This document shows, piece by piece, positions 1,560-22,441 of a DNA stretch of 64,000 nucleotides. This stretch comes from Armatimonadetes bacterium Uphvl-Ar1. Its GTDB lineage: Bacteria; Armatimonadota; Fimbriimonadia; Fimbriimonadales; Fimbriimonadaceae. Location of the stretch: assembly GCA_002162075.1 (NCBI GenBank), contig CP021423.1, forward strand, positions 1,984,001 to 2,048,000. Direction: 5' to 3'. The position numbers were made by a program, and so were the translations under genes. How positions within the stretch are numbered: the first letter of the stretch is position 1; each line of letters starts with the position of its first letter. The notes below the pieces were generated by a model, which was not told the origin of the DNA, made no database searches, and saw only the letters and a program-made list of their open reading frames with translations.

Positions 1560-2662
1560 ATCAGCAAGGCAGACCGCATGATCTCCGCGATCCGAACCTG
1601 TCCTGCATCGTTTGGATGCAACTGATCCGCCATAAGTGCCGGAGTGTAAGCATCACCAAATCCCCCAAACACATCAACAAATCCATAACCATTTGCCGAG
1701 CATAAAGTGATAAGGGCATCCCGATACTGCCCTTCCAAAGGCGAAATTCCACCGCCACTGGGCGCACACGATTTCACCAAGACATCCGGTGCCGATGCCA
1801 ATCCTCGACAGAAGGAAGCCAGTGCCGCCACATCTGCCGTGAATTGCCCCACCGGACGAGACGCCATCGCCTCATTGATGCCACATCCAATCACTACCAA
1901 ATCCGGTTGGAGTGCCGCGAGCAATGACGGTGAATTCCAGCCTGAACCTGGAAGGCTGAAATCAGCAACCCGCGCCCCCGGAATGGAACCATTAAAAATC
2001 TGAACTCGCTTCTGTGTCGAACTCCGGGCCACAATCCCAACAATGTAAGCCGGAGCGGTACCCCGCCATAACTCCACCCAATTTGAATCCGAAATCGAAG
2101 CTGCCGAAGCCGTAAATTTCTGAATCGAACCCGGCCCACCTGTCTGCTGGTTGACAACAAAACCGCCCGCTGCTTGCGCCGATATTGTCCCACTATTCAG
2201 TTGAATATAGTACACATCAAACAAGTCCGCCACAAAGCCCGGCGTCCACCGAATCTTTGTTGACGTCGATGTGTTCTGATGGCACGCAATCGCAAATCCG
2301 CCCGAAAATGGCCCCCATCCGCCTGTCGGTACCGTGAACGGACTCCCAGAAATTGTAGCCCGACTGTCGTACAGATTCGCCGATGCATAAGCTGGTTTTC
2401 CCGAGCTCCATCGCGCCGGGGTCCCCGCCTCTTCCATCATTTCGGCCACCAGATTCGGCCATGCTTTCGATTCCGGCAACGTCGTTGCGAGCGAAGTCGC
2501 AAAGCCATTCCCCGTCGAGTCATCCAAAACCATAACCGTCGCATCCCGCACTCCGGCCCGCACTTGGGAAACTGCCTGAGCATAATTGGGCAAGACAAAT
2601 CCGTACGGATTCTTTGTATCTCGCGATCGCATAGATGTTTGATTACCTAATCCCAGACTCAT
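1556..2662 (-). CDS. SGNH/GDSL-type hydrolase, last gene of the phage-like operon
   Basis: A 368-residue protein with the SGNH blocks in order: the nucleophile Ser in VLDDSTGNG (DDS where GDS is usual), a Gly-containing block II in FNGSIPGARVADFS, block III with the oxyanion Asn in GCGINE, and block V Asp/His in DQLHPNDAG. Such domains occur in phage tail tips and spikes, where they deacetylate or de-esterify surface polysaccharide. The ATG at 2662 overlaps the stop of the spike-base gene (TGATG), which indicates translational coupling; a TTG one codon earlier is less likely. About 150 residues between the first and later blocks look like a beta-rich insert. Substrate unknown; it likely acts outside the cell on a particle or on host glycan. 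Confidence 0.75.
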   Translation of the reverse strand: MSLGLGNQTSMRSRDTKNPYGFVLPNYAQAVSQVRAGVRDATVMVLDDSTGNGFATSLATTLPESKAWPNLVAEMMEEAGTPARWSSGKPAYASANLYDSRATISGSPFTVPTGGWGPFSGGFAIACHQNTSTSTKIRWTPGFVADLFDVYYIQLNSGTISAQAAGGFVVNQQTGGPGSIQKFTASAASISDSNWVELWRGTAPAYIVGIVARSSTQKRVQIFNGSIPGARVADFSLPGSGWNSPSLLAALQPDLVVIGCGINEAMASRPVGQFTADVAALASFCRGLASAPDVLVKSCAPSGGGISPLEGQYRDALITLCSANGYGFVDVFGGFGDAYTPALMADQLHPNDAGQVRIAEIMRSALLI

Positions 2663-2919
2663 CAAACCAACCCAATCAGACCCGTCGCGGTTGTTCCCGT
2701 CGCATGAACCCGAACCACTTCAAACGGCCAAATTCCCGGAGTCAAACCAGAAAATGTCACTGTCGCACCTCCCGCCATTGTCACCTTGAGCGACCCGCCA
2801 ACCGCCAAATACAAACCGCGAGTCACCTGTGCTAAATCTGCCCCATCACTGGGCGTAATCGCAAACGCATCAAAAACCGGATCTTGCTGACCCACCAAAC
2901 TCCCATCGATTCTCTTCAT
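2662..2919 (-). CDS. spike-base protein, RCAP_Rcc01079-like
   Basis: An 85-residue protein with the pattern I recall for the spike-base family named after Rhodobacter capsulatus Rcc01079: an early ITPSDGADLAQVTRGLYL segment, a short central repeat of beta strands (VTMAGGATVTFSGL) and a closing VHATGTTATGLIGL. In the R. capsulatus gene transfer agent this family belongs to the head-spike/fibre apparatus. Its place between the long tail protein and the SGNH hydrolase suggests it anchors the hydrolase or another fibre to the particle. The start has a purine-rich leader (AAGGAAAAAAAG) just upstream. Family assignment is by memory of the motif and was not searched. Confidence 0.7.
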   Translation of the reverse strand: MKRIDGSLVGQQDPVFDAFAITPSDGADLAQVTRGLYLAVGGSLKVTMAGGATVTFSGLTPGIWPFEVVRVHATGTTATGLIGLV

Positions 2920-2935
2920 GTTTATCTTTTTTTCC

Positions 2936-5926
2936 TTAACTAAACGTCACACCATCGGTGCTCAAACTACTCACGACCAAATCACTCTCAACGGTCACCA
3001 ATTCCAAAACAAACCGGCCACCCATCTGATCCAATCCCCCAACCGCCAATCCATCATCACCAACTCCCGAACGGGCACTCGAAACGTTTGATAGTACGGC
3101 ACCGCTTCTATCTCGAATCACCCCATTCACGTTTCCATCCTCAATCCAATAAACAAAACGTCGTCCATCCGGATGAATAAACAATCCCGGATACCGCACA
3201 TTCCCCACCGCCAAAGTCGTCGCCATACTCCACGTCTCGCCCAAATCATCGGAGTACCGCTCCTTGATCTGACCTTCCTCTTCGGTGACCAACACTAACC
3301 TCAATTTGCGACCGAGATCCCAGCGAATCGCCAAACTTGCCGCCGAAAAACCTACCGTTCGAGTCGCGTAGGGAGATGCAATTCCGTTCCCCTTAACCGA
3401 AATTCGAATCCCTAGTGAACCGAGAGAGGCCCTTACCGCAAGCCCCGCCGGGTGCCAATCAAAGCTCACTCCTCCCGAACTAGCCTGGTCGCGCAACGCC
3501 CGGCGATGCCTCATTCGAGTGACAACCGAAAACTCCGGCGACTCCCAACCGCCTACTCGAACAGCAGCGCTACGCGTTTCCTGACCTCCCGGCAGACCCG
3601 TGAAATAGAATCCACGAGAATCCGATGAACCACTCCCCCACAGCGTCGTACCTCCGAAAAGTTCCGCCAACGCTCCGCTCAACGAACCAGAATCATCCAG
3701 GGCAAGCCCCCACGCTTGTCCCCGCAAAATCTTCCCCGTATCGAGTCGGGTACGGACTCCAAATTCACCGTCGTCTGACCAAACATTGCCCGCCCCCGGA
3801 TACACCATCACTTCATCCCACAACGCCGCGGCAAAGACCGATAATCCCACCGATCCAACAAGATCAACCCCAACCAACCCATCCCGCCGAACTCCCCCTC
3901 CCCAGAGCAGTTCCGCCTCCCGCAAATTCGAGTGATAACCATCTCCGATCGCCAGCCCAGGGTTCACCACCCACCCCAACTCTGGCAAATCAATGATCGC
4001 TTCAGAGATACTGCGCCAGCCATAATTTCCGCCCAAGCGAGACTTCCCCCAAGCGTCTGCAATCCGACCGTCAACCTCACTCCAAAAAAGCGGCTTGACT
4101 TCTTGCCGCTCGCCCTCCACCCTGTTACCCCACCTCCGAAAAGCAGGTAAAAAGCTCATTTTCGCCTCCCCATCCCGGATCAATCGAATCGCTCGAATCT
4201 CATATACCGCGTCCTCTTCCAAATGAACAAACGACAAATTCTCTATCCGACTCACCCCCCAATAATCTGAGTCAACAACCTCACCCAACTCATCAAGCGG
4301 ATACCGAGATTCCTTTTCATCCCAATCCATTGCCCCGTTACCCGGACGACACAAATCTATCCTTCGCGTCACCCAAATGCCGTCATCCCCCGTCGCCAGA
4401 AGCCAGTTTTTTGCCCCAATACCGATTCCGAAGCCCAAGTCATCGGCCCCTACTGACCTCACCTCAAGCTCCAAATAACGATAACTCTCCGGCCTGATTA
4501 CCGGCTCAAAACTCCGAACCACCGATCCCCCCGCCGATCCAACACCTATCGCAACCCCAATCGATAACTCAACTCCAACCCCAGACCATCCAAGCAAGGA
4601 GGTGCCGTCGTCCAAAGTCATCGATTCCGGATGCGATGCCGTAAATGCCAGCCACTCTTTGCCCCGAAACTGCAATCGCCAGTCCGCCCGTTCATCGCCA
4701 TTCTCCGCCAACTGATCCCCGTCGAGCCAATGCCGCACCGTTTGCCGATCATCAAACCCCAGACTCGGCAGACTCACTCCATCAATCACCCCAAATCCTT
4801 GCCATGCCACTTGCTCAAACTCGAATATCCCCGATCCCGAAACCTCCAAGTCATCAACAAATCCCGCGCGCCGTTCAAACCGCACATTCTGCTCATCACC
4901 CAAAACATCTGATCCCGCAAAAAAGTCACCCCGCCACCGAAACTTCGTCGCCGGAACCCCCAAACAAAACCATATGCCGAGCCAGCTTCCCCCAAACCTT
5001 GCTCAAGAGCCAGAACAAATGCCGTCCGACCATCCAAACTCCCCGCACTTGTCTCCTCAAAATAGCCAGTTGGGACCAGTTCGCCCGCCACCGAACCTGA
5101 TATCGCCATCAACCCGGAGTCATTTTCAACCCACATCTGTCCCCTTCGATCCAGCGCGTAATCAACATCCCCATACTCGTCCGCTATCGCCTGACTCACC
5201 TCAAGGCTCACATCCAGCGGAGCCAACCCCGACAGCGTCGCTCCAATTTCGCCCCCTGGCCTTAACCGTTCAAAGAACCGAATACCGCGACCCTTTACCG
5301 AGTCCGGCGTCGGATCTCCTCCAAAATTCGGGAAACCCAAACCATCAGAATCAACAATCGGATCTATGACCTCAAACCACTCCTCAACATCCGCGTAAAA
5401 CAAAAACGTCGCCGCCGGATCAAGTGCTAGCGTTGAACCATCCGCAATCGCATAGCTCGCAGAATACGATCCCGTATCCCCGGTCTCAAAGCTCAAACCA
5501 TCCCCGACGACTAACTCCTGCTCCAAAGAAAAAGTGTCTGAAAAATTCGCCGTACAGATCGAATTCGTGGGCCAACTAGAAAACACAGAAGTTGTGAGCA
5601 ACCGCGCTTTCATCCCCAAACCCCGCACATCAATAAACTCCGGCCACTTTTCAGAAAACGTAGCATGACGATTGGGTGTCACTGGCCACTCCGGGTACAC
5701 CGATACTCAACCTCAATCGGACACTGCCAGCTCCCCGATACCACCAAGCGCCTCTGCCGTCCGCTCCGAAAAATTGCCAACCTCAGTTCCCCCCGATCCG
5801 CTTCACGTTCCGAATCAGCTTCTTCGCCAGTTCATCACTTCCTCGGGCCACTACCGTTCGAGTTCTCCCCGCCCGCCGAGCCGCCAAAACCAAACTGCGC
5901 AAACTCACCAACGCACGAAAATTCAT
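2936..5926 (-). CDS. large tail/receptor-binding protein with Asp-box propeller (three apparent single-base breaks)
   Basis: The reading frame starts at ATG 5926, overlapping the upstream stop by four bases. It is broken three times: at C-runs 5789-5794, 5700-5701 and 4957-4961 (plus-strand coordinates). Adding one base at each gives one continuous protein of about 997 residues. The N-terminal 75 residues are basic and read MNFRALVSLRSLVLAARRAG at the start. The middle is beta-rich, with repeated aromatic and acidic segments. Near the C-terminus a BNR/Asp-box motif (YSDDLGETWS) and a second weaker one (LSTDGVTFS) point to a sialidase-like beta-propeller. This is typical of receptor-binding or glycan-binding tail proteins. 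If the breaks are real, the gene is dead and yields only a 47-residue peptide. Confidence 0.65.
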
Positions 5927-8055
5927 ACAACCAACTCCCCACAGTAAATCGCCCGACGATAAGTGCCCCCTTCTACTTCGAACCGAAAATCGACTCCCAA
6001 AGACCGTATCCGCACGTCCCCAACCCCGACGAGCGTCACCAAATCACCCCTCCAAATCGGACCACCCCCGTCGTGAAAGAGCATCTCACTTTCAAATTCA
6101 ACAAGCTCCCGCTTCTTCGCCAAATCCGCAAAGAGTGCTTCACAACTCGCATCAACTGCCGCCTGCTTCGTCAACCCCCGATCAACCAAAGCAAATCGTT
6201 TGATTGAACCACTCCACCCCGGTGACCGTGCTGCAACCAAAGCCCCCACCGATTGCGCTTCGTAATCAGTCCGCACACTCAGCATCGGACGACCCGTTCG
6301 CGGATCCTCTCCCGTCACTCGCACCTCGTTTGCAACTGGCTCCAGAGTCGCGCGTCGCAAATTTCGATACACCACTCCTTCGGATACCGAACGATAAAGC
6401 ATGCCTGCTGATTCAAAACTGAGTTCCGAATCCGGAACCGCAAAAAATTCCTCTCCACTCCCATCTGCCGCCGGACGAAATCCGTACCACCACCCCGTCG
6501 CAAATGTATCAAAGAGCCGCCTCAACCAATCACTGACCCGGTCACCCGCTTCAATGAGCAGACCCCACTCCCCCGCCATTACTCCCGGGGCAAATGGCAA
6601 AGTCGGCCCCGATTCCGAAACTCGAACGCGGCTCCCATCAATCCCCGACTTCTCGACCAATAACCGAACCGCTTGACTAAAACTTAACCCATCTAAAGGC
6701 ACTCGATCCGCAAAGACCGCACCATCTAAAAGCCCCCACCGATCTCTAACTTCCAATTTCCCTTCGGTAACCGAATCATATTCAGCAATCCGCTCCATCG
6801 CCCCCGCTATCCCTTCCAAAACAGTCTGCTCATCAACAACCAATCGCACCTGGGATGATCCTCTTCCCAATTGCCCACCCGACAAAGCATCAATCCCATC
6901 GGCGTCCGTGACCAGAACATCTAACGCAACGCCAGAGGCGCGATCCGGAACACTTAGTACCGCTCTCCCAACAAACTCCGACCCATCGCTAACGGCTGAG
7001 CCATCAGTCAAGTCACTCATTGCGCCAAACCCCAGCTGCACCCCCGTAACAAACGGCGAAAACCGACTATCCGTCGAACTCAAGTCAAGGCGAACCCGAA
7101 TTTCGTTCGCTATTCCATCCGGCACAAACGCCGTCACACCATCCCACTCCACCAATGTCGCTTCGACCGATTGATCTCCCGCTCCGTACCCGGGATCACC
7201 ATAAATCAAATACGGCTGAACCCCGCCCAACCATAATGCATTTTCAAATTCAACCAGGCTCTCACCTAAAACTGGTGCTTCTAAAAATGCACTCTTCAAT
7301 GACGTCGCAAACCCGGACGGCGCAAATCGCAAAGGAGCAATCTGCGCTTGAGTCGCCCCACTGACACCCTGAAACCAGATCTTCCCTTCAGGGGTGATTT
7401 CAGGGTCGGGGTCATCTGGATCAATATCACCAAAAACAATGCTAAATCCATCTCCACTTTGACTAACCACCAATAATTCACGACCTCTCATTGGGATCAC
7501 CATCACCTCAAAAACTTGCAGTCGCCTGACCTCTCGCGACTTCGCTCCGGAAATCTTCCCCTCATCAACAAACTCGCCGTTCCGGAAGACTTCAACCCGA
7601 CCATCACTCCAAATGTGCAAAGCGACCCCCGCACCATCCGAGGCCACATCATTCCACCCCAACTGATACTGCAAAAACGTGTCCCCCGCCCCATAACTAA
7701 ACCAACTAAAACTCAGCCCCATATTCTTCGGAAAGCTCACATTCGAGAGGGCCGCCGGATTGCTCGCCGCATCCCTTGCCGCCAACCAAGGCCCCGCCCA
7801 ATGCTGGTCGAGCCGCTCTTCCCACTCCGGGCCAACCGCAAAATCCGCCAACCCCAACTTCGCGTAATCCCCGATCGCCGTCGTATACCACTCGGTATCC
7901 AAAGGTCGAGGACGAAGCATCAATGTGTTCGTCACCGGATCAATCCATGTATTCTCCCAAACCGACCCATTCAGCTCCAATCCCCCCGCAACCACCGTCA
8001 ATCGATCCGCCGCCAACCGCCTCTGCGCTTGGTTCACAAGCAACTCAAAACTCAT
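5923..8055 (-). CDS. putative tail hub / baseplate protein
   Basis: A 710-residue protein in the tail part of the phage-like operon. The first 400 residues are beta-rich, with a lectin- or LamG-like feel (DGRVEVFRNGEFVDEG), and include an Asp/Pro-rich linker GDIDPDDPDPEITPEG near residue 210. The C-terminal 250 residues resemble phage hub proteins in layout: a helix (RVSDWLRRLFDTFATGWWYG) followed by strands and a closing small barrel (PIWRGDLVTLVGVGDVRI). I recognise no family with certainty. The start overlaps the upstream stop (ATGA), and its own stop overlaps the next start in the same way. Position right after the tube protein and before the spike proteins fits a hub, but no tape-measure protein lies between. 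Confidence 0.5.
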   Translation of the reverse strand: MSFELLVNQAQRRLAADRLTVVAGGLELNGSVWENTWIDPVTNTLMLRPRPLDTEWYTTAIGDYAKLGLADFAVGPEWEERLDQHWAGPWLAARDAASNPAALSNVSFPKNMGLSFSWFSYGAGDTFLQYQLGWNDVASDGAGVALHIWSDGRVEVFRNGEFVDEGKISGAKSREVRRLQVFEVMVIPMRGRELLVVSQSGDGFSIVFGDIDPDDPDPEITPEGKIWFQGVSGATQAQIAPLRFAPSGFATSLKSAFLEAPVLGESLVEFENALWLGGVQPYLIYGDPGYGAGDQSVEATLVEWDGVTAFVPDGIANEIRVRLDLSSTDSRFSPFVTGVQLGFGAMSDLTDGSAVSDGSEFVGRAVLSVPDRASGVALDVLVTDADGIDALSGGQLGRGSSQVRLVVDEQTVLEGIAGAMERIAEYDSVTEGKLEVRDRWGLLDGAVFADRVPLDGLSFSQAVRLLVEKSGIDGSRVRVSESGPTLPFAPGVMAGEWGLLIEAGDRVSDWLRRLFDTFATGWWYGFRPAADGSGEEFFAVPDSELSFESAGMLYRSVSEGVVYRNLRRATLEPVANEVRVTGEDPRTGRPMLSVRTDYEAQSVGALVAARSPGWSGSIKRFALVDRGLTKQAAVDASCEALFADLAKKRELVEFESEMLFHDGGGPIWRGDLVTLVGVGDVRIRSLGVDFRFEVEGGTYRRAIYCGELVV

Positions 8056-8288
8056 CTTCGCAAGCCTCTCCCTTCAAGTTCATCCCACCAATCCAAAGTC
8101 CTCTCATCAACAGATCGTTCGGTTACCTCACGAACAAAGCCATATTCAGAATCAAACAGACCATACTCCAGCCCCTCATCAAGCCGAGAATCCTCGAAAT
8201 CTGACCAGCCGATTCCCGGCTCAACTTCATCTGGATCTCCATCATGTCCACCCAAGAAGCGATCCCACAACCCGCTCAAGAATTCCAT
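8052..8288 (-). CDS. small acidic protein of the phage-like operon
   Basis: A 78-residue, strongly acidic protein (start MEFLSGLWDRFLGG) with many Asp and Glu residues and several Trp, and no membrane segment or motif I recognise. It is coupled on both sides: the start shares TGATG with the upstream stop, and the stop overlaps the next ATG. In siphoviruses this position would hold tail-assembly chaperones followed by the tape measure. It could be a remnant or replacement of such a chaperone, or an unrelated structural adaptor. Function not assignable from sequence. Confidence 0.6.
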   Translation of the reverse strand: MEFLSGLWDRFLGGHDGDPDEVEPGIGWSDFEDSRLDEGLEYGLFDSEYGFVREVTERSVDERTLDWWDELEGRGLRR

Positions 8289-9081
8289 CACGAGAGCGAC
8301 ACCGCTCCCTGACTCACAAAGTCATAAGTTGAATCCACAACCGACCCCCTTCCAAATCGAAAACCAAATTGCTTGATCAAGAAACCACCCGTCAATACCG
8401 GCTGACCAACTCCCGCATCAACAACTACTGCCAAAGATGCTCCTGAGCTGTTAAAAGCATGAGCTAGCAAACTCCCCGATCCAACCGGTGCCGTAGGATA
8501 TGCACTTCCCACCGCCGAACTCCCGACGAGATCCAAACGCCACTTCTGCCGCTTCCCTGCCGAAAAAATGTGCTCGAATCGGGCCAACGCCATCGGCACC
8601 GCAACCACGACCCATTGATCGTCACTGAAAACCCCACATCCTTCCCCGCCAGTCCCCCGAAAGCCTTGCCAACGAGCGCGACCGAACCCGCCGAATCAAC
8701 CATCAGCTCCAGCCGAGCCCGATAATCCTTCCGAACAACCACTGGCCATTCCCACTCATCCCCAATTCCCGAACCATCATCGATCTCCATCCGACCTTCA
8801 AAGACCCCTTGTTCAGCGACAGTTCGATAATCCAATCCCGCCACGCTCAGTGCCGATATATCAAGATGCGTCACCTTCGCCCCACCGGGCTTAGAACTCA
8901 TCAGGCCATTCGTGATCCGAACGCTTTGCTTGACTGCCGCACGGGATTCCCCCGCCAGAATTACCGGAGTCACATCTGCAAATTGAGTCGACGACACCAC
9001 CTCCGCCTGCCTCAAATCCGCTAAAACCGAGACCCCGCCAACATCAAAAACCGAAACATCAACTCCCGTCAAACGCGCCAT
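8288..9081 (-). CDS. putative major tail (tube) protein, one apparent frameshift
   Basis: Two overlapping frames join into one protein of about 264 residues if one base is added at the A-run 8628-8631; the joined part reads through GFFSDDQWVVVAVPMALARF. The N-terminus is MARLTGVDVSVFDVGG. The protein is beta-rich with two similar halves, each ending in a KxWRLDL- or RARLEL-like strand, which fits a doubled tail-tube fold. The start is preceded by GGGGGAG and overlaps the end of the tail-terminator candidate by 13 bases. Gene order (connector, stopper, terminator, then this) supports a tube role, but I see no decisive motif. Without the extra base the protein would end in an unrelated Arg- and Trp-rich tail. 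Confidence 0.5.
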
Positions 9082-9497
9082 CTACTCCCCCGCTCCGCAC
9101 AAAGCTCACACAGAAATTCCATCTTCAAATCAAACTCACCATCCCCCGCACTCCCTTGCTCAATCCAAACTCGGCGAACCATCGGCAATTCCGCCACCCC
9201 CGCCGGATTCCCCGAAGCCAAGAGTTCACTCCGCAACGCTGTCGCATCCGCCAACAAAGCCTCCGAAACAACTCCCGAAGCCACCGACCGCCGCACCATG
9301 ATTTCAAAACTGACCTTGAGCCGATCCACCAAAACCGAATCCGGCTCAAACTCCAAATCCTTGGTAACAACCCTCGCAAAGGGCACTCCAAAATCACCCT
9401 CCGGCGTATCAACTGCAACCACAATCCCAGGCCAAACAACTTGGATAGCATCAACCACAAACCCTCGAACCGCAACCAAATCCGCAGACCAACTCAT
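9069..9497 (-). CDS. putative tail terminator / head-tail joining protein
   Basis: A 142-residue protein in the slot where HK97-like phages and GTAs carry the gp8-like tail terminator. It begins with an amphipathic helix (LVAVRGFVVDAIQVVWPG), continues with strands that include FEIMVRRSV, and ends basic. Size and helix-strand pattern suit the terminator fold. The start ATG overlaps the stop of the stopper candidate (ATGA). The assignment rests on order, size and secondary-structure pattern, not a signature motif. Confidence 0.5.
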   Translation of the reverse strand: MSWSADLVAVRGFVVDAIQVVWPGIVVAVDTPEGDFGVPFARVVTKDLEFEPDSVLVDRLKVSFEIMVRRSVASGVVSEALLADATALRSELLASGNPAGVAELPMVRRVWIEQGSAGDGEFDLKMEFLCELCAERGSRWRV

Positions 9498-9829
9498 CCG
9501 TCGAGCCGCTCCACTATCAATCTGCCATGATCCGTCGCCAATCCCATTTCAAATCTCTGAGGATCAACCACCACTCGATAAAACGCCCCGTCAAGCTCCA
9601 GACGATCCCCCCCAGAAATCAAATCACAATCATCCAAATCCATTAAAACCACTGCCGGATTCTTCCCTTCAATCCCGAGTTCATCCATTACAAATTTCGG
9701 CGTCTTCTCCACAAGCAATCCCGACATGAGAGCCCCCGAATCCCACTCGCTACGCACCAATACACCCCCGACAATCTCCGGCACAAGCGACCACAGCCGA
9801 AATTGATGCGGCTTCCAAACCAATCCCAT
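9494..9829 (-). CDS. putative head closure (stopper) protein
   Basis: A 111-residue beta-rich protein. The ATG at 9829 shares one base with the preceding stop (TGATG); a TTG one codon upstream is less likely. It sits between the connector candidate and the tail-terminator candidate, the usual place for a gp7/gp16-type stopper that closes the portal channel after packaging. The segment GDRLELDGAFYRVVVDPQRF is typical of the small barrel in that family. No catalytic motif is expected or seen. Confidence 0.5.
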   Translation of the reverse strand: MGLVWKPHQFRLWSLVPEIVGGVLVRSEWDSGALMSGLLVEKTPKFVMDELGIEGKNPAVVLMDLDDCDLISGGDRLELDGAFYRVVVDPQRFEMGLATDHGRLIVERLDG

Positions 9830-10410
9830 CAAGCCCCCAACCCCGGTACTCGGTACCGTCCAAAAACCACAAGCGAACGGTCTGACAATAGCTCCGCAAA
9901 TCGCGCCGGAGATATCCCCGCCCGGTACTTAATTGTCACGGAATCCTGCTTAACTGACTCCACATCATCATTCGATGCGGAATCCAACATGGCAACCACA
10001 TAACTCGCTGCCAAATCCCGAACCGCATACCAAACATCCGCGGGCACTTCCACCCCAAAACCTGGCCTCCCCGAAACAACCACCGCACCCGAAAGATTGT
10101 CTGCCAAAGCCAACTTCCGCACTGGCAATACTCCCTCCGGACAAGTCGTGAACTGCACAGATTCTCCGCCACATTCAACTCCCGAAATCAATCCAAACGG
10201 ACGATCAAGCAGAACAACCCCACTCATCGAGTCAAATCGAAATTCCGCCATGGAGCCCGCCAAAAACGGACCAAAACCAACCATCATTTCAAGCTCACTG
10301 ACCGCTCGGTCAACAAGTTCTCCAAAGTCAACGGTTGGCAAATCTGCAAACCCTGAATCATTCAAAAAACCAGTTACATCCGCCCCCACGGGCCAAGAAT
10401 TCATTCCCAT
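9829..10410 (-). CDS. putative head-tail connector (adaptor) protein
   Basis: A protein of about 193 residues directly downstream of the capsid gene. The C-terminal half has helices (ADVWYAVRDLAASYVVAMLD and RFAELLSDRSLVVFGRYR) and an NDDVESVKQDSVTIKY segment that resembles gp6-type adaptors, which bind the portal ring. I chose ATG 10410 because GGGAGG lies eight bases upstream; a GTG three codons earlier overlaps that ribosome site. The N-terminal part is less typical. A hairpin between this gene and the capsid gene probably reduces its transcription relative to capsid. Confidence 0.55.
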   Translation of the reverse strand: MGMNSWPVGADVTGFLNDSGFADLPTVDFGELVDRAVSELEMMVGFGPFLAGSMAEFRFDSMSGVVLLDRPFGLISGVECGGESVQFTTCPEGVLPVRKLALADNLSGAVVVSGRPGFGVEVPADVWYAVRDLAASYVVAMLDSASNDDVESVKQDSVTIKYRAGISPARFAELLSDRSLVVFGRYRVPGLGA

Positions 10411-10433
10411 AAAATGCACCTCCCGAAGAACAC

Positions 10434-10486: not shown

Positions 10487-11719
10487 CTAGCTACCCAAAC
10501 CCGTTAGCTTACAAATCGCCTGATCACGCAACACCTGGAGCCCCGCCCGGACACTCGCCCGGATCGCCACCTTATTACTCGTGAAGTAATCCTCGTGCGC
10601 ATTCGTACTGCTCACCGTCAGATCACCGCGCATTTTGATCCGCGCATAGTCCGTGTCAATCACCATGCCCGTACCCGCGGTCAAAGCCTCGCTCGCAACA
10701 ATCTGAACTCCCCAAATCCGGCTCAAAGGCGCATCACCCGGATGACCAAAGATGTAAAGTCCATCTGCCGTTTTGGTCAAAGCAAGTGCTTGGTAGTTAT
10801 CACTATGCAAAACCACCAAGTTCGGCTTCGCCCGCCCCTGCGTGCGAACTTTCGTCATCGCCTTCATGATCTGATCAAAAGCGTTATCCGTCCCCGCTGC
10901 TTGTGCCAAAGCACCCGTCTGACCATAAAGTCCAAGGATATTCACCCCCGTTCCATCGCCAACCGTCACCTGCTCATCCAACTTCTGTCGAACCATCAAC
11001 TTAAGATCCTCGTCAATCAACGCCCGAACCCCAGGCTCATCTTCCAACTGTTCTTCAGTCACCGGAAGATAAACCCCCAGCTTCCGAATATTGACCGTCG
11101 CCTCCGAGTAAGCAATCCCTGCCTCATCAAACGCCGCGTTTTCCCCCTTCGCTGCTGCCGCATTCGTCCGTGTCGTCTGCTTCATAAACTTAACCGCGTT
11201 CTGATCTGTCACATCAATCCGAAGCAAATCAATCAATTGCGGCGGTCGAGAGATCGCCGGCACCACACTACCATCCCGAAACTGATGCGGCGCAAATCCA
11301 GCCCCCGTAGTCATCGTCGCCTTAACCCCCAAATACTCCAAGGCCGCGCGTTCAAGCTCAACATCACCAAAACGGCCCCCAACTCGACCTTGCCAAGCCG
11401 CACTTTTCAAGAGCATGTCACTGGCCAATCCACCCGGAGCCGCACCCAGAACTCGGTTCACAGGCCGGTTCATCACGCGTGCCTTCACTTCAATGTCTTG
11501 CGCCGCATCAAAAGCTCCCCGAGCCACCTCAAACTTCTTGCTGAGATCATTGATCTCATCCATCATCTTCCGCAAACCCTCAAGGTCGTTCGCCGGAATA
11601 TCCTTAACCGCTTGTCCATCAACCAACGACTTCGTGGAGTAGCCATCCCATCGCTTCTTGTATGCCATCCGCTTGCTCTCCAGCTCGCGCCCTAGTTCAA
11701 TATGATTCGTACCGCTCAT
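10487..11719 (-). CDS. HK97-family major capsid protein
   Basis: A 410-residue HK97-fold capsid protein. Residues 1-110 form a charged, helical N-terminal region (ELESKRMAYKKRWDG... DLSKKFEVARGAFDAAQD) that matches the scaffold-like delta domain removed by the prohead protease. The rest has the family layout: ATMTTGAGFAPHQFRDG at the E-loop approach, LRIDVTDQNAVKFMKQTTRT, the KLGVYLPVTEEQLEDEPG segment, and a P-domain/A-loop end (AHEDYFTSNKVAIRASVRAG) that is highly typical. AGGA lies six bases before ATG 11719. The protease gene is just upstream, as in HK97 and in gene transfer agents. The protein is intact, which argues that the particle system has not wholly decayed. Confidence 0.93.
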   Translation of the reverse strand: MSGTNHIELGRELESKRMAYKKRWDGYSTKSLVDGQAVKDIPANDLEGLRKMMDEINDLSKKFEVARGAFDAAQDIEVKARVMNRPVNRVLGAAPGGLASDMLLKSAAWQGRVGGRFGDVELERAALEYLGVKATMTTGAGFAPHQFRDGSVVPAISRPPQLIDLLRIDVTDQNAVKFMKQTTRTNAAAAKGENAAFDEAGIAYSEATVNIRKLGVYLPVTEEQLEDEPGVRALIDEDLKLMVRQKLDEQVTVGDGTGVNILGLYGQTGALAQAAGTDNAFDQIMKAMTKVRTQGRAKPNLVVLHSDNYQALALTKTADGLYIFGHPGDAPLSRIWGVQIVASEALTAGTGMVIDTDYARIKMRGDLTVSSTNAHEDYFTSNKVAIRASVRAGLQVLRDQAICKLTGLGS

Positions 11720-11770: not shown

Positions 11771-12321
11771 TCAATTTTTGTCAATTCCGGCCCTGTCCAT
11801 AGCCCGTTCAAGCTCCAAAACATCGGCAACCCCTGCCCGATTACTCTTCTCAATACCCATCGCTTCCGCCCCCACGGCCGCTGGCAAAGTCACCAAGCTA
11901 AACTCCTTCAACTCAATCTCTTTCAGCAAACGAACCCTTCTCCCGTCACGCATTTCAAAGTCCCAAACTCTTGGCAAATATCCGATACTCAGCCCCACTC
12001 GCTTCCCTGCCGCAAGTCGTTCATCCGCAACCGTCTTCGCCGCTTGCGCCCCCGCCGTCGAATGAAATTTCATTCCCACCAAAAGCCCGCGCTGATCTTC
12101 TCTTGCTTCCGTGACATATCCAACTGGAATGCCCGAATGGTCATGCCCCACCGCAACAAATCCTGTTCGGACAAATTCCCCAAGTCTCCATAAGCTCCAT
12201 CACAGATCACATCACCGTAACTATCAACAATGTTCTTTACCGATGCATATCCTCGCAGTCCATCCGCAAGCTCCCCTAGCCCGTCGTTCTTATTTTCAAT
12301 CCAAAACGTCTTCCGCTCCAT
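11771..12321 (-). CDS. HK97-type prohead protease (S78), one apparent frameshift
   Basis: Two frames join into about 183 residues if one base is added at C-run 12178-12181 (plus strand). The joined protein has all the family landmarks: MERKTFWIENK and GYASVKNIVDSYGDVICDGAY at the start, the catalytic His in VGHDHSGIPVGYV, the catalytic Ser in KRVGLSIGYLP, and the acidic/ELKEFSLVTLPA segment near the end. It cleaves the capsid N-terminal domain and itself during prohead maturation. It is the first gene of the minus-strand structural operon, 51 bases ahead of the capsid gene. If the break is real, no active protease is made and the capsid could not mature normally. Confidence 0.85.
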
Positions 12322-12470
12322 AACTAATTACTTAAATTCTGATTTCCCTATATCTCTGCAACAAAGTAACGAAATTACCAAGACTCCTGTCTCCTCCATT
12401 CGCATATGAATAAGATTGAAAATGATCGGGGGCGCCTGCATTGAAATCCCAGAAATCGCCAGTACGATGG
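12322..12470. promoter_or_regulatory. divergent intergenic region between head operon and lysis/packaging operon
   Basis: This AT-rich stretch separates the protease start from the endolysin start, so promoters for both operons should lie here. I see no clean -35/-10 pair. A small inverted repeat (AGAC and GTCT around TCCT, 12381-12392) and a palindromic ATTCGCATATGAAT (about 12399-12412) could be operator sites. The placement would allow one regulator to switch both operons together, but no site can be tied to a named regulator. Confidence 0.3.
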
Positions 12471-12983
12471 ATGACTGACAATCAGTACCAGAGTGCCTCT
12501 ATAAGCCAGAGGGCAATTGCCCACGCTGATTCCCAAGTAGGAATCCTCGAATCCGGCCCCAACCGAGGCCAGAGAGTCGAAGAATATCAAGAAGTCGCTG
12601 GCCTCGGCCGGGGCGGTGGCTATCCGTGGTGCGCCTGCTTTGTCTATTGGTGCCTCATCAAATCCGGATCAAATCCCAAGATTATCCCCGCCATCGGTGC
12701 CTGTGCCGCCGTCAGGAATTGGATCAATTGGGCAAAGTCAAACACACGTCGAACTCAAAAACCCCATCGAGGGGCCCTCTTTTATTGGTTAAACCAAGAC
12801 CAAACCGGCCACATTGGCTTATGCCTTGGCCCCAGCGTACTCGGTATTTTCCGGACGATCGAAGGCAACACCGACCGCGAACAAGGGAGCCGAGAAGGCG
12901 ACGGTGTCTACAAACGAACCCGAACCCTTTGGCAGCTCAAATCAAAAAACCAACACGGATTCATCTCTCTCGAAAACCTATGA
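12471..12983 (+). CDS. CHAP / NlpC-like endolysin
   Basis: A protein of about 170 residues with a papain-like peptidoglycan hydrolase domain. The catalytic Cys is in GYPWCACFVYWCL, the His in QTGHIGLCLG, and the region EGNTDREQGSREGDGVYKRT closes the domain. This layout (Cys, about 75 residues, His) is that of CHAP amidases or endopeptidases. No signal peptide is seen, so it would need a holin, which is encoded next. I chose ATG 12471 because the upstream TTG at 12441 adds residues without a family counterpart. The first gene of the plus-strand lysis/packaging operon. Confidence 0.82.
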   Translation: MTDNQYQSASISQRAIAHADSQVGILESGPNRGQRVEEYQEVAGLGRGGGYPWCACFVYWCLIKSGSNPKIIPAIGACAAVRNWINWAKSNTRRTQKPHRGALFYWLNQDQTGHIGLCLGPSVLGIFRTIEGNTDREQGSREGDGVYKRTRTLWQLKSKNQHGFISLENL

Positions 12984-13426: not shown

Positions 13427-13792
13427 ATGAGATACACCGACGCCCTGCGCCAGCAACTCTGCAACTTGCTCGCCCAGGGCAAATCTCTACGAGAAATTTG
13501 TGCGGACCCCAAGATGCCGAGCCTCACAACCGTCTATAACTGGCTCAGTCCCGGCAATCCAAAATTCAACCCAGAGTTTCTCGCTCAATACCGCGTTGCT
13601 CGCATGTGGCAAAGCGAAGCATTTCTGGAGCAAATTATCGAAATTTCCCGAAGCGACACACTCACAGCCGATCAGAAGAAAATCCAAATGGATGCTCTCA
13701 AAACCGCCTCCGCGCGACTAGAGGGTCGCAAATATGGCGATGACAAACCACGTCAATTGACTGTCAAAGTTGTTTACGAAGACACCCCGTGA
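13427..13792 (+). CDS. terminase small subunit
   Basis: A 121-residue protein with an N-terminal helix-turn-helix (LAQGKSLREICADPKMPSLTTVYNWL), as in small terminases that bind packaging sites, followed by a helical oligomerisation part (EAFLEQIIEIS... QKKIQMDALKTASARLEGRKYG). The last segment (QLTVKVVYED) is a common ending in this family. Its stop overlaps the start of the large terminase by four bases. In gene transfer agents the small subunit often has reduced site specificity; whether that is so here cannot be read from sequence. Confidence 0.82.
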   Translation: MRYTDALRQQLCNLLAQGKSLREICADPKMPSLTTVYNWLSPGNPKFNPEFLAQYRVARMWQSEAFLEQIIEISRSDTLTADQKKIQMDALKTASARLEGRKYGDDKPRQLTVKVVYEDTP

Positions 13793-14985
13793 ATCTCAAT
13801 ACCGTAATCCGACTTCCCCGTCTTCATCCTGCCCAATCACAGGTCAAATCGGAGGCGTCAAGGTTTAACGTTCTGGCCTGCGGGCGCCGATGGGGCAAAA
13901 CTATTCTTGGACTCGATCTTGCCATCCATTCCGCTCTCGATGGACACCCCGTCGCGTGGGCCGCTCCATCGTACAAACTCCTCGCCGAACCCTTCCGCAC
14001 CGCCCAAAGCCTCCTCAGCCCGATCATCAAGCGAATTAGTCACGAAGATCACCGAATCGAACTCGCGACCGGTGGCACGATCATATTTTGGACTCTCAAC
14101 GACATCAACCTCGGTCGAGGCTACAAATACAAACTCTGGATCATTGATGAAGCCGCGCATTCTCCAAACCTCCAAACCGCATTTGAAGAATCTATCCGGC
14201 CAACGCTCGTCGATCTCTGCGGCGACGCCTGGTTTCTCAGCTCACCTCAAGGTCAAAACTATTTCCACAAACTCTTTCTCAAAGGTCAATCGTCTGACTC
14301 TCCCAACTACAAATCGTGGCAAATGCCAACCGCGTCAAACCCGCACATCCGCGCCCAAGAAATAGCCGAAGCACGAGACACTCTCCCCGAACGCACGTTC
14401 CGCCAAGAATTCCTCGCTGAATTCGCCCAAAACAAAGACACAATCTTTCAAAATTTTCACCGTAATATCACCTCGCTGCCAATTTCTGAGCCAAATCCCA
14501 ACCACACCTACATCGCCGGAATTGACCTCGCAAAAGTTCAAGATTTCACAGTAATAACTATCCTGAACGACCAAGGATATCAAGTCTATTTCGATCGTTT
14601 CCGCCGCCAAACCTGGTCACAAGTCATCTCCCGGATAATCACCGCGTGTCAAAAATTTCGAGCCCCTGCAGTCATTGATGCCACCGGGCTGGGCGATCCC
14701 ATCGTCGAACAACTCCAATCTGCCGGACTCACTTTATTTCCGTTCCGTTTCACATCCCTCAGCAAAGAACCATTAATTCAATCTCTTGCCGTCAAACTGG
14801 AACAAAACAAACTGTCTCTCCTCGACATTCCTGAACAAACCCAGGAGCTCGAGTCATTCCAAGCGATTGCAACCCCCGGTGGCGGCATCAAATACTCGGC
14901 ACCACCCGGCCAACATGACGATTGCGTGATTGCCCTCGCTCTCGCTGCTTCAAAAATTGGCAATTCCCGCCTCAGCGTGTTCTGA
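13789..14985 (+). CDS. terminase large subunit
   Basis: A 398-residue DNA-packaging motor. The ATPase half has a Walker A (ACGRRWGKT, about residues 31-39), a Q-like start (LHPAQ), a Walker B with catalytic Glu (LWIIDEAAH) and the coupling motif WFLSSPQGQNYF. The nuclease half has RNase-H-like acidic clusters: IAGIDLAKVQDFTV, AVIDATGLGDP and the final HDDCVIALALA. All key residues are present and the frame is intact. It is convergent and abutting with a host proline dehydrogenase gene, so no portal follows; the portal lies 6 kb away on the other strand, which is unusual because the two are normally adjacent. Confidence 0.92.
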   Translation: MNLNTVIRLPRLHPAQSQVKSEASRFNVLACGRRWGKTILGLDLAIHSALDGHPVAWAAPSYKLLAEPFRTAQSLLSPIIKRISHEDHRIELATGGTIIFWTLNDINLGRGYKYKLWIIDEAAHSPNLQTAFEESIRPTLVDLCGDAWFLSSPQGQNYFHKLFLKGQSSDSPNYKSWQMPTASNPHIRAQEIAEARDTLPERTFRQEFLAEFAQNKDTIFQNFHRNITSLPISEPNPNHTYIAGIDLAKVQDFTVITILNDQGYQVYFDRFRRQTWSQVISRIITACQKFRAPAVIDATGLGDPIVEQLQSAGLTLFPFRFTSLSKEPLIQSLAVKLEQNKLSLLDIPEQTQELESFQAIATPGGGIKYSAPPGQHDDCVIALALAASKIGNSRLSVF

Positions 14986-15941
14986 CTACTTCGCAAAAAG
15001 CGACTTCAAGATGAACAACACATTCGCTGGACGCTCTGCCAACCTGCGCGTAAAATACGGATACCAGGCTTCACCAAAAGGCAAGTAAACTCGGACATTG
15101 AATCCCTCATCAAGCAGCTCCCGCTGCAGATCACGTCTAATTCCGTGCAACATTTGCCATTCAAAGCTTTTCCTATCAATTCCACGGCTCGCTACAAACC
15201 TCTTGAGCTCGTCAATAATCGCCGCATCATGGCTCGCAATCGCCGGGTATCTCCCCCGCACCAACAGCTTTTTCGCCTGCTCCAAATACTTCCGATCAAC
15301 ATCAGCTTTGGAGGGATATGCAATCTTCTCCGATTCAAGATATGCCCCTTTGACAATCCGCAATCGACACCCATCCCCAATCAAACATTCCAAATCCCCA
15401 TCCGTACGATAAAGATAACTCTGTAGCACTGTGCCTGTATTAAAAAACTCCTTGCGCGCCGAGCGCACAAGATCAATCGTCACCTGAGTATAAGGCGACC
15501 CTCCATGTCAGCACGGATAAATGTCTCCGCACCAACCGCCTTCTCCAGCAAACGGCGATAATTCGCCTCTGCCAATTCCAAATCCTGATCCAAACCCAAA
15601 GCCGTCAACTTAATCGAGATATTGATCGCGTCCTTATGCTCTGACTTCGCAATTCCGTCCAGCAAGTTCAAATAAGCTTGCGTCCCTGCCTCGGCTTCTT
15701 CCAGCGTCGCAACATTCTCACCCAAAAGATCAAGCGATACAAAAAACCCTTCCCGCGCTAAGCCTTCCGCAGTAGAAATCGACTCCTTAAGTCCCTCACC
15801 CGCAATAAACCGACCAACCATCGGCCGAAACAACCGCGATGAACGAACAAGCCGCTCCACCCCCGGCAACCCTGCCGATTTCAAGATCAAAGTGCGAAAA
15901 ACCATCTCCGTTGATGAGCCCGATTTTACTGAACTCGCCAT
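14986..15941 (-). CDS. proline dehydrogenase, one apparent frameshift
   Basis: A flavoenzyme that oxidises proline to pyrroline-5-carboxylate. Two frames join into about 318 residues, the normal size for the monofunctional enzyme, if one base is added at C-run 15499-15501 (plus strand). The join then reads FIRADMEGSPYTQVTIDLV, the conserved family segment. The downstream half has VLQSYLYRTDGDLECL, the RIVKGAYLESEKIAYPSK motif with the FAD-contacting Lys/Arg, IASHD, and the closing RVYLPFGEAWYPYFTRRLAERP with substrate-binding Arg residues. As printed, the first frame stops after GRLILR. It is divergent from the GT9 gene with only eight bases between starts. A host gene set between phage-type modules. 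Confidence 0.85.
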
Positions 15942-19738: not shown

Positions 19739-20362
19739 CTAAGGGATAATTCCCGACGAATCGTAAATCGTTATTCGCTGGGTCCCCCGCTCCCTCACAA
19801 TCCCCACAAGGTACCCCAGCATCGCCCCCTCCGCTGGGAAGGCGTCATAGCGAGCATTCAACGGCAACAAAATATACTGCTCGCCGTCGTGCTTCAACTG
19901 CTTCACTGTAACTAATCCATCTTCAGAACGAAAGAGAATCACGTGCCCAATCCTCGGCACATCCGTCCGTTGAAATACACAAACATCCTGCGGCTCCAAA
20001 AGCGGATACATCGAGTCCGAACTGATTCGACAAGCAAACCGCCCCCGAGGGTCGCCCATCTCCGGCGGCACAAATTCAAACGTCTCACTCTCAAAAGGGT
20101 CAGTCCAATTCACCGGATCACTAGCCGCAATATATCCAATGTAAGTCACCGGAACCAATAGCTGACTTGCTGGGATCAAAGGATCACCCACTTCACCCCC
20201 ATCAAAACCCAGTCCCCGGAGCCGAACCATCACCTTCGGGGCAATCTCCGCACCACCAGATTCCATCATCGCAACCAAACTCCGCGAAACCCCCAACTCC
20301 TCCGCCATCTCCTGCTGAGTCCACCCCTTATCACGCCGAAATTCCTTCAACTTGTCAACCAT
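19739..20362 (-). CDS. CI/LexA-like repressor (XRE helix-turn-helix plus S24 peptidase)
   Basis: A 207-residue protein. Residues 1-55 are an XRE-type helix-turn-helix (GWTQQEMAEELGVSRSLVAMM); residues 100-205 are an S24 self-cleaving domain with the Ser nucleophile in ISSDSMYPLLEPQDVC and the Lys base in LVTVKQLKH. The usual cleavage Ala-Gly is here Ala-Ser (GYIAASDPVNW), so cleavage under RecA may be altered. It is divergent from the sigma-factor gene over a 68-base region full of TTGACA-like half sites, which suggests that it controls both itself and the sigma gene, as phage repressors do. The only recognisable phage-type master regulator in the window. Confidence 0.88.
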   Translation of the reverse strand: MVDKLKEFRRDKGWTQQEMAEELGVSRSLVAMMESGGAEIAPKVMVRLRGLGFDGGEVGDPLIPASQLLVPVTYIGYIAASDPVNWTDPFESETFEFVPPEMGDPRGRFACRISSDSMYPLLEPQDVCVFQRTDVPRIGHVILFRSEDGLVTVKQLKHDGEQYILLPLNARYDAFPAEGAMLGYLVGIVRERGTQRITIYDSSGIIP

Positions 20363-20430
20363 GTCAATATTTTACCATATTTTTGACATTGCTCTTGACA
20401 AAATAGTAGACATAAAGATACTATATTGGC
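20362..20430. promoter_or_regulatory. divergent promoter/operator of repressor and sigma genes
   Basis: Toward the sigma gene, TTGACA (20395-20400) and TACTAT (20419-20424) stand 18 bases apart. The -10 ends six bases before the ATG, so the sigma mRNA would start at or near its ATG and be leaderless. On the other strand a TAAAAT box (20374-20369) likewise ends six bases before the repressor ATG. Three half sites recur: TGTCAA at 20362-20367, TTGACA at 20383-20388 and TTGACA at 20395-20400, with GTAGACA at 20406-20412. The first pair is an inverted repeat with a 15-base gap. Repressor bound here would block both promoters. The sites are visible; the binding is inferred. Confidence 0.6.
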
Positions 20431-20913
20431 ATGGGCTATTCACATGATAACTCTGAAATTCGTTGGAATCAAGACACCGAACAGTACGTCCGCCGTGCAA
20501 CCAGAACTTGGTGCTCACGTCTCGGAATCAAAGGCGAAGACGTCAAAGACCTCGAGCAAGATGCCGTAATGACCGCATGGAATAAAGTCGAAAATGGCAA
20601 GATCCACTACAAAGAGGGACTCTGGTTCATCGCCCGCAACACCGTGCTTGACTTCCGAGCGAAAGCTAGTCGAATCGATACCACCGAACTCGACGAACAA
20701 CTCGCTCGAGAACCGTCAAATCCCCTTGACAAAATTCTCATCGAAGAAGTCCAACGGGAGTTCCCCGAGCTTGTCCTCCTCGCCGCCGCAAGGGCCGACG
20801 GTTTCGAGTGGGATCTCATCGCCCAATCCTTGGGCATCAGTTCCGGCACTCTCCGTGTGCGCTACAGCCGATTAGTTAAGAAGGCCAACGAACACTTTAA
20901 CAAATCTAGATAA
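20431..20913 (+). CDS. sigma-70-family (ECF-like) sigma factor
   Basis: A 160-residue protein with sigma region 2 (DVKDLEQDAVMTAWNKV and FIARNTVLDFRAKASR, about residues 33-78) and region 4 helix-turn-helix (GFEWDLIAQSLGISSGTLRV, about residues 125-145). It lacks regions 1 and 3, the ECF layout. It is divergent from a phage-type repressor and convergent with the portal gene, separated by a hairpin terminator. In that setting it may activate the late particle genes, with its own expression held off by the repressor. This role is an inference. A host stress sigma factor is the alternative. No anti-sigma gene is nearby. Confidence 0.8.
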   Translation: MGYSHDNSEIRWNQDTEQYVRRATRTWCSRLGIKGEDVKDLEQDAVMTAWNKVENGKIHYKEGLWFIARNTVLDFRAKASRIDTTELDEQLAREPSNPLDKILIEEVQREFPELVLLAAARADGFEWDLIAQSLGISSGTLRVRYSRLVKKANEHFNKSR

Positions 20914-20916
20914 GTC

Positions 20917-20946
20917 AAAAGCCGCCCCCACCAAGGGGGCAGCTCT
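20917..20946. terminator. bidirectional terminator between sigma and portal genes
   Basis: A GC-rich hairpin (arms GCCGCCCCC and GGGGGCAGC with one mismatch, ACCAA loop, 20921-20943) lies between the convergent stops of the sigma gene and the portal gene. It is preceded by AAAA and followed by CTCTTATT, so it can serve both directions. Confidence 0.65.
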
Positions 20947-21995
20947 TATTCTTCAAACCAAACCCGCAGATCATCCCCGCTTCCAAATTCGTGCAGCAAC
21001 TGATCTGTAAAAGTATTGGACAAATCTTGCCACAAAGGAACCAAGAATTCCTCTGTCGCCGCTGCTCGCGCTTCCCCCATATTCGAGTAAGTCGCCCGGT
21101 CAAGCCCCGCCCCGAGCCCAACTACAACCGCCGGAATCCCAAGCACTGCCGTGATCCGCTCTTCTGGCAGCCGGTTGAGCTGGCCAATCGCCAAATCATC
21201 CGGCTTGAACCCAATCGGCGTAACTTCTGCCGGAAAAGTCGGCACAATTACTCCGCCCGCATTCTCCCGGCTTGTTGCCTGGCGCATCCGTTCTGCCACA
21301 TAGTCCGCATCCGCCTGAGTCAACCGAACCCCATCACCCTTTGCCGAAACGATCAAGCTGGGTACAGGATTTCCCAACAAACTCTGGCTATATGCGGCAA
21401 TCTGATTGTCAGTGGCAATCTGCCGTGCGACCGACTTCAGTCGAGAAATTCCCATGCAAGGCCGCTCCGGATCAAGCCCATCGCGATCATGCAAAATGTC
21501 TTCTCGCCCAACTCGAACCACACCGCTCGATCCCAAAATCTCATAGTAATCCACCAAATTCGGACGATCACGCACCGGAACGACCCGGACACAAGAATGC
21601 GGCAACCACTCCAATCCAATCATCCGCCCTTCCGCATTCCGAATCTTCAATGCAAAAGCATTCCCGTCCAAAATGCGCGAATAAACCAAAGCCGAGATCA
21701 ATTCCCGACCCGACAAATTCGCCCGATCACGCGCATCAATCATGCCCTGGGGCCGCCGCATAATCTCCCCCAATGGGTGGTCAACCCGGCCCCACTCTGC
21801 ACCGTCAAACCCTTGAATCAAAAAACTCGCCCGCCCCGCATTGCGCATCGCCCAAAAAACGCAAGCCATCACCGCGCTATTCTGGGTTGCATCAGCTTCC
21901 CGCACCGGAACCGCCCCCGGCGACCACAAAAAGCTCGCTGAACTCCCCCGATTCCAATTCAATCCCTTCGTAAAAATCCGCTCAAACAGTCTCAT
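20946..21995 (-). CDS. HK97-type phage portal protein, short C-terminus
   Basis: A 349-residue portal. It shows the family features VMACVFWAMRNAGRASF near the start, ELISALVYSRILDGNAFALKI, YYEILGSS...REDILHDRDGLDP, GISRLKSVARQIATDNQIAAYSQSLLGN, the RLPEERITAVLGIPAVVVGLG segment and TYSNMGEARAAATEEFLVPLWQDL. It ends at RVWFEE, at least about 40 residues before where the family usually ends, so the C-terminal crown region is missing or reduced. The stop abuts a terminator, so nothing was cut off by a nearby frame break. It lies 9 kb from its capsid gene and 6 kb from its terminase, with host genes between. The upstream neighbour is a mercury-transport-like gene. Confidence 0.88.
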   Translation of the reverse strand: MRLFERIFTKGLNWNRGSSASFLWSPGAVPVREADATQNSAVMACVFWAMRNAGRASFLIQGFDGAEWGRVDHPLGEIMRRPQGMIDARDRANLSGRELISALVYSRILDGNAFALKIRNAEGRMIGLEWLPHSCVRVVPVRDRPNLVDYYEILGSSGVVRVGREDILHDRDGLDPERPCMGISRLKSVARQIATDNQIAAYSQSLLGNPVPSLIVSAKGDGVRLTQADADYVAERMRQATSRENAGGVIVPTFPAEVTPIGFKPDDLAIGQLNRLPEERITAVLGIPAVVVGLGAGLDRATYSNMGEARAAATEEFLVPLWQDLSNTFTDQLLHEFGSGDDLRVWFEE

Positions 21996-22402: not shown

Positions 22403-22405
22403 AAT

Positions 22406-22429
22406 GCAATTATATTGCAATAACGCAAT
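22406..22429. promoter_or_regulatory. inverted repeat upstream of the MerT-like gene
   Basis: GCAAT-TAT-ATTGC (22406-22418) is a perfect inverted repeat, and a third GCAAT (22425-22429) follows. It ends four bases before the MerT-like ATG (22402, read leftwards). Such short AT-rich palindromes are common ArsR-type operators, so metal-responsive control is possible. No regulator gene is beside it. Confidence 0.35.
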
Positions 22430-22441
22430 TTTCTCAAGGAC

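Follow-up and report, generated by a model that had tools for sequence, protein, structure and literature searches.

The window analysed here, a stretch of 64,000 nucleotides from a single contig of 2.99 Mb in a genome of the Fimbriimonadaceae (Armatimonadota), contains a divergent pair of genes for an S24-family repressor and an ECF-like sigma factor. The features of this pair and of its promoter region are as follows.

19739-20362, minus strand: S24-family repressor with an HTH_3 domain, 207 amino acids, with the Ser-Lys dyad preserved and Ala-Ser in the position usually cleaved (Pfam, PHROG, alignment of seven orthologues and other S24 proteins)
20369-20374, minus strand: -10 box of the repressor gene, TAAAAT preceded by TG (sequence; conserved TTTACCATA-type block in relatives)
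20383-20388, plus strand: upstream TTGACA copy, kept in 5 of 7 genomes, candidate repressor half site (alignment)
20395-20400, plus strand: -35 box of the sigma gene, TTGACA, kept in 7 of 7 genomes (alignment, sequence)
20403-20424, no strand: predicted LexA (SOS) box ATAGTAGACATAAAGATACTAT in the sigma promoter, covering its spacer and -10 box (cross-gene and cross-genome motif matches)
20419-20424, plus strand: -10 box of the sigma gene, TACTAT (sequence)
20431-20913, plus strand: ECF-like sigma factor, 160 amino acids, with a sigma2 domain and a sigma4-like part (Pfam, PHROG, profiles, structure model)
20924-20940, no strand: GC hairpin that resembles a terminator, where the sigma and portal genes converge (sequence)

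The layout that an earlier note on this DNA had described held up on inspection. The repressor gene starts with an ATG at 20360-20362 on the minus strand and the sigma gene with an ATG at 20431 on the plus strand, the divergent region between them comprises 68 bases (20363-20430), and the sigma gene is convergent with the portal gene. The three TTGACA-type half sites are present at 20362-20367 (as TGTCAA), 20383-20388, and 20395-20400; nothing in this analysis links them to repressor binding. The -10 boxes of both genes also end six bases 5′ of the respective ATG, as had been claimed, which fits leaderless mRNA. From the -35 box of the sigma promoter the spacing is 18 bases to TACTAT or 16 bases to GATACT. 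A leaderless layout was rejected as a special mark of a switch, as lexA and a Y-family polymerase gene of the same genome are laid out alike. A mercury-transporter-like gene behind the portal gene (window about 22404-22437) has TATAAT six bases 5′ of its probable ATG. Judged from these promoters, the leaderless layout seems to be common in this host. An Rfam search of the whole window gave zero matches.

The repressor matched the Pfam families Peptidase_S24 (2.1e-13) and HTH_3 (3.4e-10) and a PHROG for transcriptional repressors (1e-20). The SDSM and TVK/TIK motifs of its Ser-Lys catalytic dyad are invariant in the seven orthologues. The Ala-Gly or Cys-Gly scissile bond of LexA/CI-type proteins is absent, with Ala-Ser in 7 of 7 proteins and Ala-Gly in the aligned host LexA. 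In the case of the sigma protein, region 2 was recognized by Pfam (Sigma70_r2, 2.1e-5, 24.7 bits versus a cut-off of 24) and also in sigma2 alignments, and region 4 reached 17.0 bits versus a cut-off of 25.7. The protein matched a phage sigma-factor PHROG, and in profile comparisons it aligned with solved ECF sigma factors. Its score against NCBIfam TIGR02937 was 30.4 bits, under the curated cut-off of 42.9, and we therefore call it ECF-like only. An AlphaFold model computed from a five-sequence input (pLDDT 77.7) showed two helical domains; the modelled residues 99-158 fit sigma4 of SigD with 2.0 Å over 60 residues (Z 8.0), and the top structural neighbours of the model were sigma factors. 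Because the Foldseek E-values were weak (best 0.013) and the pTM was 0.50, the predicted fold supports the sigma assignment but does not prove it.

Phage-particle genes are located on both sides of the pair:

1556-10419, minus strand: connector and tail genes, the last encoding an SGNH-type tail-fibre-like protein (PHROG matches at the two ends; gene order kept in relatives)
10487-11719, minus strand: HK97-type major capsid protein (Phage_capsid, 1.2e-38)
11771-12321, minus strand: prohead protease, with one frame break in this assembly and intact in relatives (family match, comparison with relatives)
12441-12983, plus strand: CHAP endolysin, start possibly at 12471 (family match)
13427-13792, plus strand: terminase small subunit (Sf6_terminase, 2.5e-26)
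13789-14985, plus strand: terminase large subunit (family match; relatives, mostly single copy, in 46 of the 61 genomes of the order)
20946-21995, minus strand: portal protein (Phage_portal, 8e-36)

The named relatives of the portal protein are from Fimbriimonadaceae assemblies. One-base frame breaks were found in the prohead protease gene (12070-12321 with 11771-12151) and in a proline dehydrogenase gene (14986-15941). Both genes are intact in genome G006 and in other relatives, which suggests that the breaks are assembly errors or recent mutations. The portal gene of G001 (L124:14858-17308) is a single frame whose C-terminal part encodes a GDSL/SGNH hydrolase domain; the SGNH-like protein of this window is the product of the tail-fibre-like gene at 1556-2665. 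The relative of the terminase large subunit stands alone among housekeeping genes in G041 (L129:9816-11033) and adjoins a Mu-type portal gene in G025 (L130:8789-11205); the terminase is perhaps an order-wide domesticated packaging module. No integrase was found in the window, the nearest match being located about 34 kb before it. A separate prophage-like region of the same genome (L135, G000 584-608 kb) contains genes for a DnaB-type helicase, an HK97 capsid protein, a portal protein, and a distant sigma-like protein, and an integrase match lies just upstream of it.

The divergent pair is kept in the same order in seven of the eight genomes of the genus (this genome, G001, G002, G003, G005, G006, and G007), and its core promoter is conserved in seven genomes as well, which is beyond chance. 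In the case of G004, a broken piece of the repressor gene is left, and the sigma, portal, large terminase, and capsid genes are absent. Protein distances followed host distances taken from a Y-family polymerase (Spearman 0.88 for the repressor and 0.80 for the sigma factor), and dN/dS values in species pairs were 0.02-0.11 for the repressor, sigma, portal, terminase, and capsid genes and a tail gene. A host flank of genes for proline dehydrogenase, glycosyltransferases, and tRNA-dihydrouridine synthase is shared by this genome with G003, G005, G006, and G007, and the same flank lies beside the repressor piece of G004. The pair adjoins portal or packaging genes in this genome, G006, G003, G005, and G007. 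In G003 and G005 the capsid-tail module is 1.3-1.5 Mb away from the pair, and in G001 the portal gene, the pair, the endolysin gene, and the terminase gene are spread over 26 kb amid housekeeping genes. As the operons are scattered, control of the capsid-tail operon, if any, would have to act in trans. Particle and packaging genes without an integrase nearby and vertical inheritance under purifying selection are among the marks of a gene transfer agent (GTA), and both were found here. By its sequence, the element looks like a domesticated, GTA-like one and not like an active prophage.

The spacer and the -10 box of the sigma promoter are covered by a 22-bp dyad, ATAGTAGACN4GTCTACTAT (20403-20424), which was absent from the earlier note although it tells more than any other feature of the region. 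Alignment of the divergent regions revealed it in the sigma promoter of all seven genomes having the gene; the copy of this genome has 3 mismatches in 18 positions. At up to 3 mismatches the dyad occurs at only four places in this genome, one of which overlaps the start codon of the Y-family polymerase gene, and at up to 5 of 18 mismatches 20403-20424 is the only site in the window. The prophage-like region at 584-608 kb, which has its own sigma-like gene, contained zero such boxes at up to 4 mismatches. The Y-family polymerase gene retains the box within the genus and in other families. A matrix was built from the start regions of Y-family polymerase genes and nothing else. In 11 loci scanned with it on both strands, the highest scores (18.7-24 bits) fell on the sigma promoters of the seven genomes, and the best background site came next with 13.2 bits; as the dyad had first been spotted in sigma promoters, its anchor in the training set was not fully blind. 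A scan of ten relatives yielded 35 sites versus 3 in a reversed-pattern control. The dyad precedes ligD-type phosphoesterase genes in G003, G005, and G007, recG and an SplB-like gene in G001, an SplB-like gene in G008, recN in G003, and recA in G044, with recN, recA, and the SplB-like genes named from sequence by eye. Either GTAGAC or GTCTAC was present in 23 of 25 lexA upstream regions versus 7 of 457 window tiles, the motif being clear only as a half site in lexA promoters. The box was also present at the polymerase gene of G042 and G044, which belong to another family and lack the genus-type S24-sigma pair, and a weaker match was found at the polymerase gene of G004, which has lost the pair. 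The palindrome symmetry of the copy in this genome is weak (788 of 1000 shuffles of single intergenic regions were as good), and the case for the dyad is made by the matches across genes and genomes and not by symmetry.

LexA is encoded by the host (LexA_DNA_bind 1.3e-20, Peptidase_S24 2.1e-34) and in 25 of 25 genomes. Since the dyad is shared with repair genes, also where the S24 repressor is missing, it is most likely the host LexA (SOS) box of the order, to which LexA is predicted to bind. In G042 (L198:1041-1487) and G044 (L207:1512-1991), a strong SOS-type box lies directly before the gene for a small HTH protein in a shared host neighbourhood, and the G044 protein has weak similarity to sigma region 4. 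These proteins are possibly another SOS-controlled activator, and they hint at a broader distribution or a repeated origin of such wiring. G004 has a site near-identical to the box of the sigma promoter (L201, G004:C9:66618) with no clear gene behind it.

According to the earlier note, repressor and sigma factor form a paired switch in which loss of the repressor releases a sigma factor that turns on scattered late operons. The conserved pair that travels with scattered particle operons agrees with this proposal, but the operator over the sigma promoter is a match to the SOS box of the host, and it is probably LexA that keeps the sigma gene off, either in place of the phage repressor or alongside it. 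On balance, we favor the view that the domesticated phage-particle system is activated by the sigma gene under SOS control. The sequence itself shows the gene pair and its promoter, an SOS box shared with other genes, conservation, purifying selection, and scattered operons; LexA binding, the target of the S24 protein, and activation of the particle operons by the sigma factor are what we infer. In an undamaged cell, host LexA on the 22-bp dyad would block the sigma promoter, and the neighbouring S24 repressor would serve as a second lock or set its own level. As a second lock it may be uncut or poorly cut and be reached by the SOS response only via LexA. Upon DNA damage LexA would be removed by cleavage, the housekeeping sigma70-type promoter would then yield a sigma mRNA with almost no leader, and RNA polymerase would be guided in trans by the ECF-like sigma factor to the separate capsid-tail, packaging, and lysis operons. 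As there is no second SOS box in the window even at five mismatches, the particle operons would need an activator. The step from the sigma factor to these operons is suggested by genomic association and precedent. The full picture of dispersed GTA-like operons commanded in trans by an ECF-like sigma factor within the host SOS regulon, with the S24 protein as a second lock that has perhaps lost self-cleavage, is more tentative, and we rate it somewhat below even.

The S24 repressor alone could bind the divergent region, repress the sigma gene, and be cleaved or lost on induction without direct involvement of LexA. The divergent arrangement in seven genomes, the intact Ser-Lys dyad, and the TTGACA repeats in the promoter speak for this possibility. 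We nevertheless regard it as unlikely, because the promoter dyad is the box of SOS genes and is found also where the genus-type repressor is missing, and because the Gly of the usual cleavage site is Ser in 7 of 7 proteins. In addition, the recognition helix of the repressor differs between this genome and G003 whereas the dyad is nearly constant, which argues against the dyad as the operator of the S24 repressor. That assignment was rejected as the main reading also because the box recurs at recA, recN, recG, Y-polymerase, and ligD-type genes and is present in genomes that have no genus-type repressor.

A further possibility is a sigma factor that belongs to the SOS response and whose targets are host genes, with the particle operons answering another signal. 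In G002 the pair is kept and no match to portal, large terminase, or capsid genes was found, the contig ending beside the sigma gene; on this evidence the pair may serve other genes, and G002 is the main fact against the step from the sigma factor to the particle operons. A sigma-type promoter common to 12321, 12471, and 21995, which the earlier note had proposed to search for, did not emerge from a two-block Gibbs search, whose information content of 10.9 was no better than that of shuffles (10.4-11.3), the few sequences giving it little power. Upstream of the protease gene, three lineages share a GTNAC block, which was set aside as too common to carry weight. Against a sigma factor for host genes stand the adjacency of the pair to portal or packaging genes in five genomes and the loss of the sigma gene together with the particle genes in G004, and we consider this explanation improbable. 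Still less probable in our view is a decaying prophage whose repressor, sigma, and particle genes are remnants without present function. In favor of decay are the frame break that this assembly has in the protease gene, the disappearance of the system from G004 and of the particle genes from G002, and a search of viral contigs in which no relatives of the sigma factor or the portal protein were found. Decay is at odds with the low dN/dS values across genes and species pairs and with the host flank shared by five genomes. Moreover, the protease gene is intact in G006, G003, G005, and G007, and the similar break in a housekeeping gene suggests assembly errors.

The switching-on of domesticated phage particles is known in few alphaproteobacteria. 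If the SOS-controlled activator proposed here is true, one sigma gene controlled by the DNA-damage repressor of the host would couple particle production directly to the SOS response, and a likely switch would be legible from sequence in a distant phylum. A consensus for the predicted LexA box can now be offered for the Fimbriimonadales. Within the literature covered by our search, no paper on a GTA or a LexA motif of Armatimonadota was found.

PBSX of Bacillus subtilis, a defective phage packaging host DNA, combines the repressor Xre with the sigma-like late-operon activator Xpf. It differs by its one contiguous cluster and its non-S24 repressor, and it is likened here by description.

The sigma factor SigN (ZpdN) of the B. 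subtilis plasmid pBS32 has a vegetative promoter that host LexA represses, and DNA damage turns its regulon on (PMC6751061). The likeness is an element-borne sigma factor that is repressed by LexA and released by damage, here predicted from sequence. However, the targets of SigN are its own promoter and replication genes, SigN promoters are largely missing from the prophage region, and LexA is the sole repressor (PMC6751061). In the present window, a divergent S24 repressor gene and particle genes lie next to the sigma gene. In the Caulobacter GTA, the dedicated repressor RogA similarly restrains activators, GafYZ, of a domesticated particle cluster and of accessory genes in trans (PMC11150451, PMC9632790). 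In contrast to an ECF-like sigma factor, GafY works through RpoD with IHF and GafZ in anti-termination; the natural signal relieving RogA is unknown, and no adjacent LexA box was reported there (PMC11150451, PMC9632790). GafA of RcGTA is likewise a GTA activator with sigma-like DNA-binding similarity, and LexA is required for production, but LexA acts indirectly, apparently through CckA, and GafA binds the omega subunit (PMC9638019). In phage GIL01, host LexA directly represses phage promoters, and the phage itself codes for another protein of the LexA family; the lysogeny repressor consists of LexA with gp7, gp6 is the activator, and no sigma factor takes part (PMC6182141). The arrangement found here, a sigma gene that carries an SOS box, diverges from the gene for an S24 repressor, and lies beside dispersed particle genes, is a new variation on such systems.
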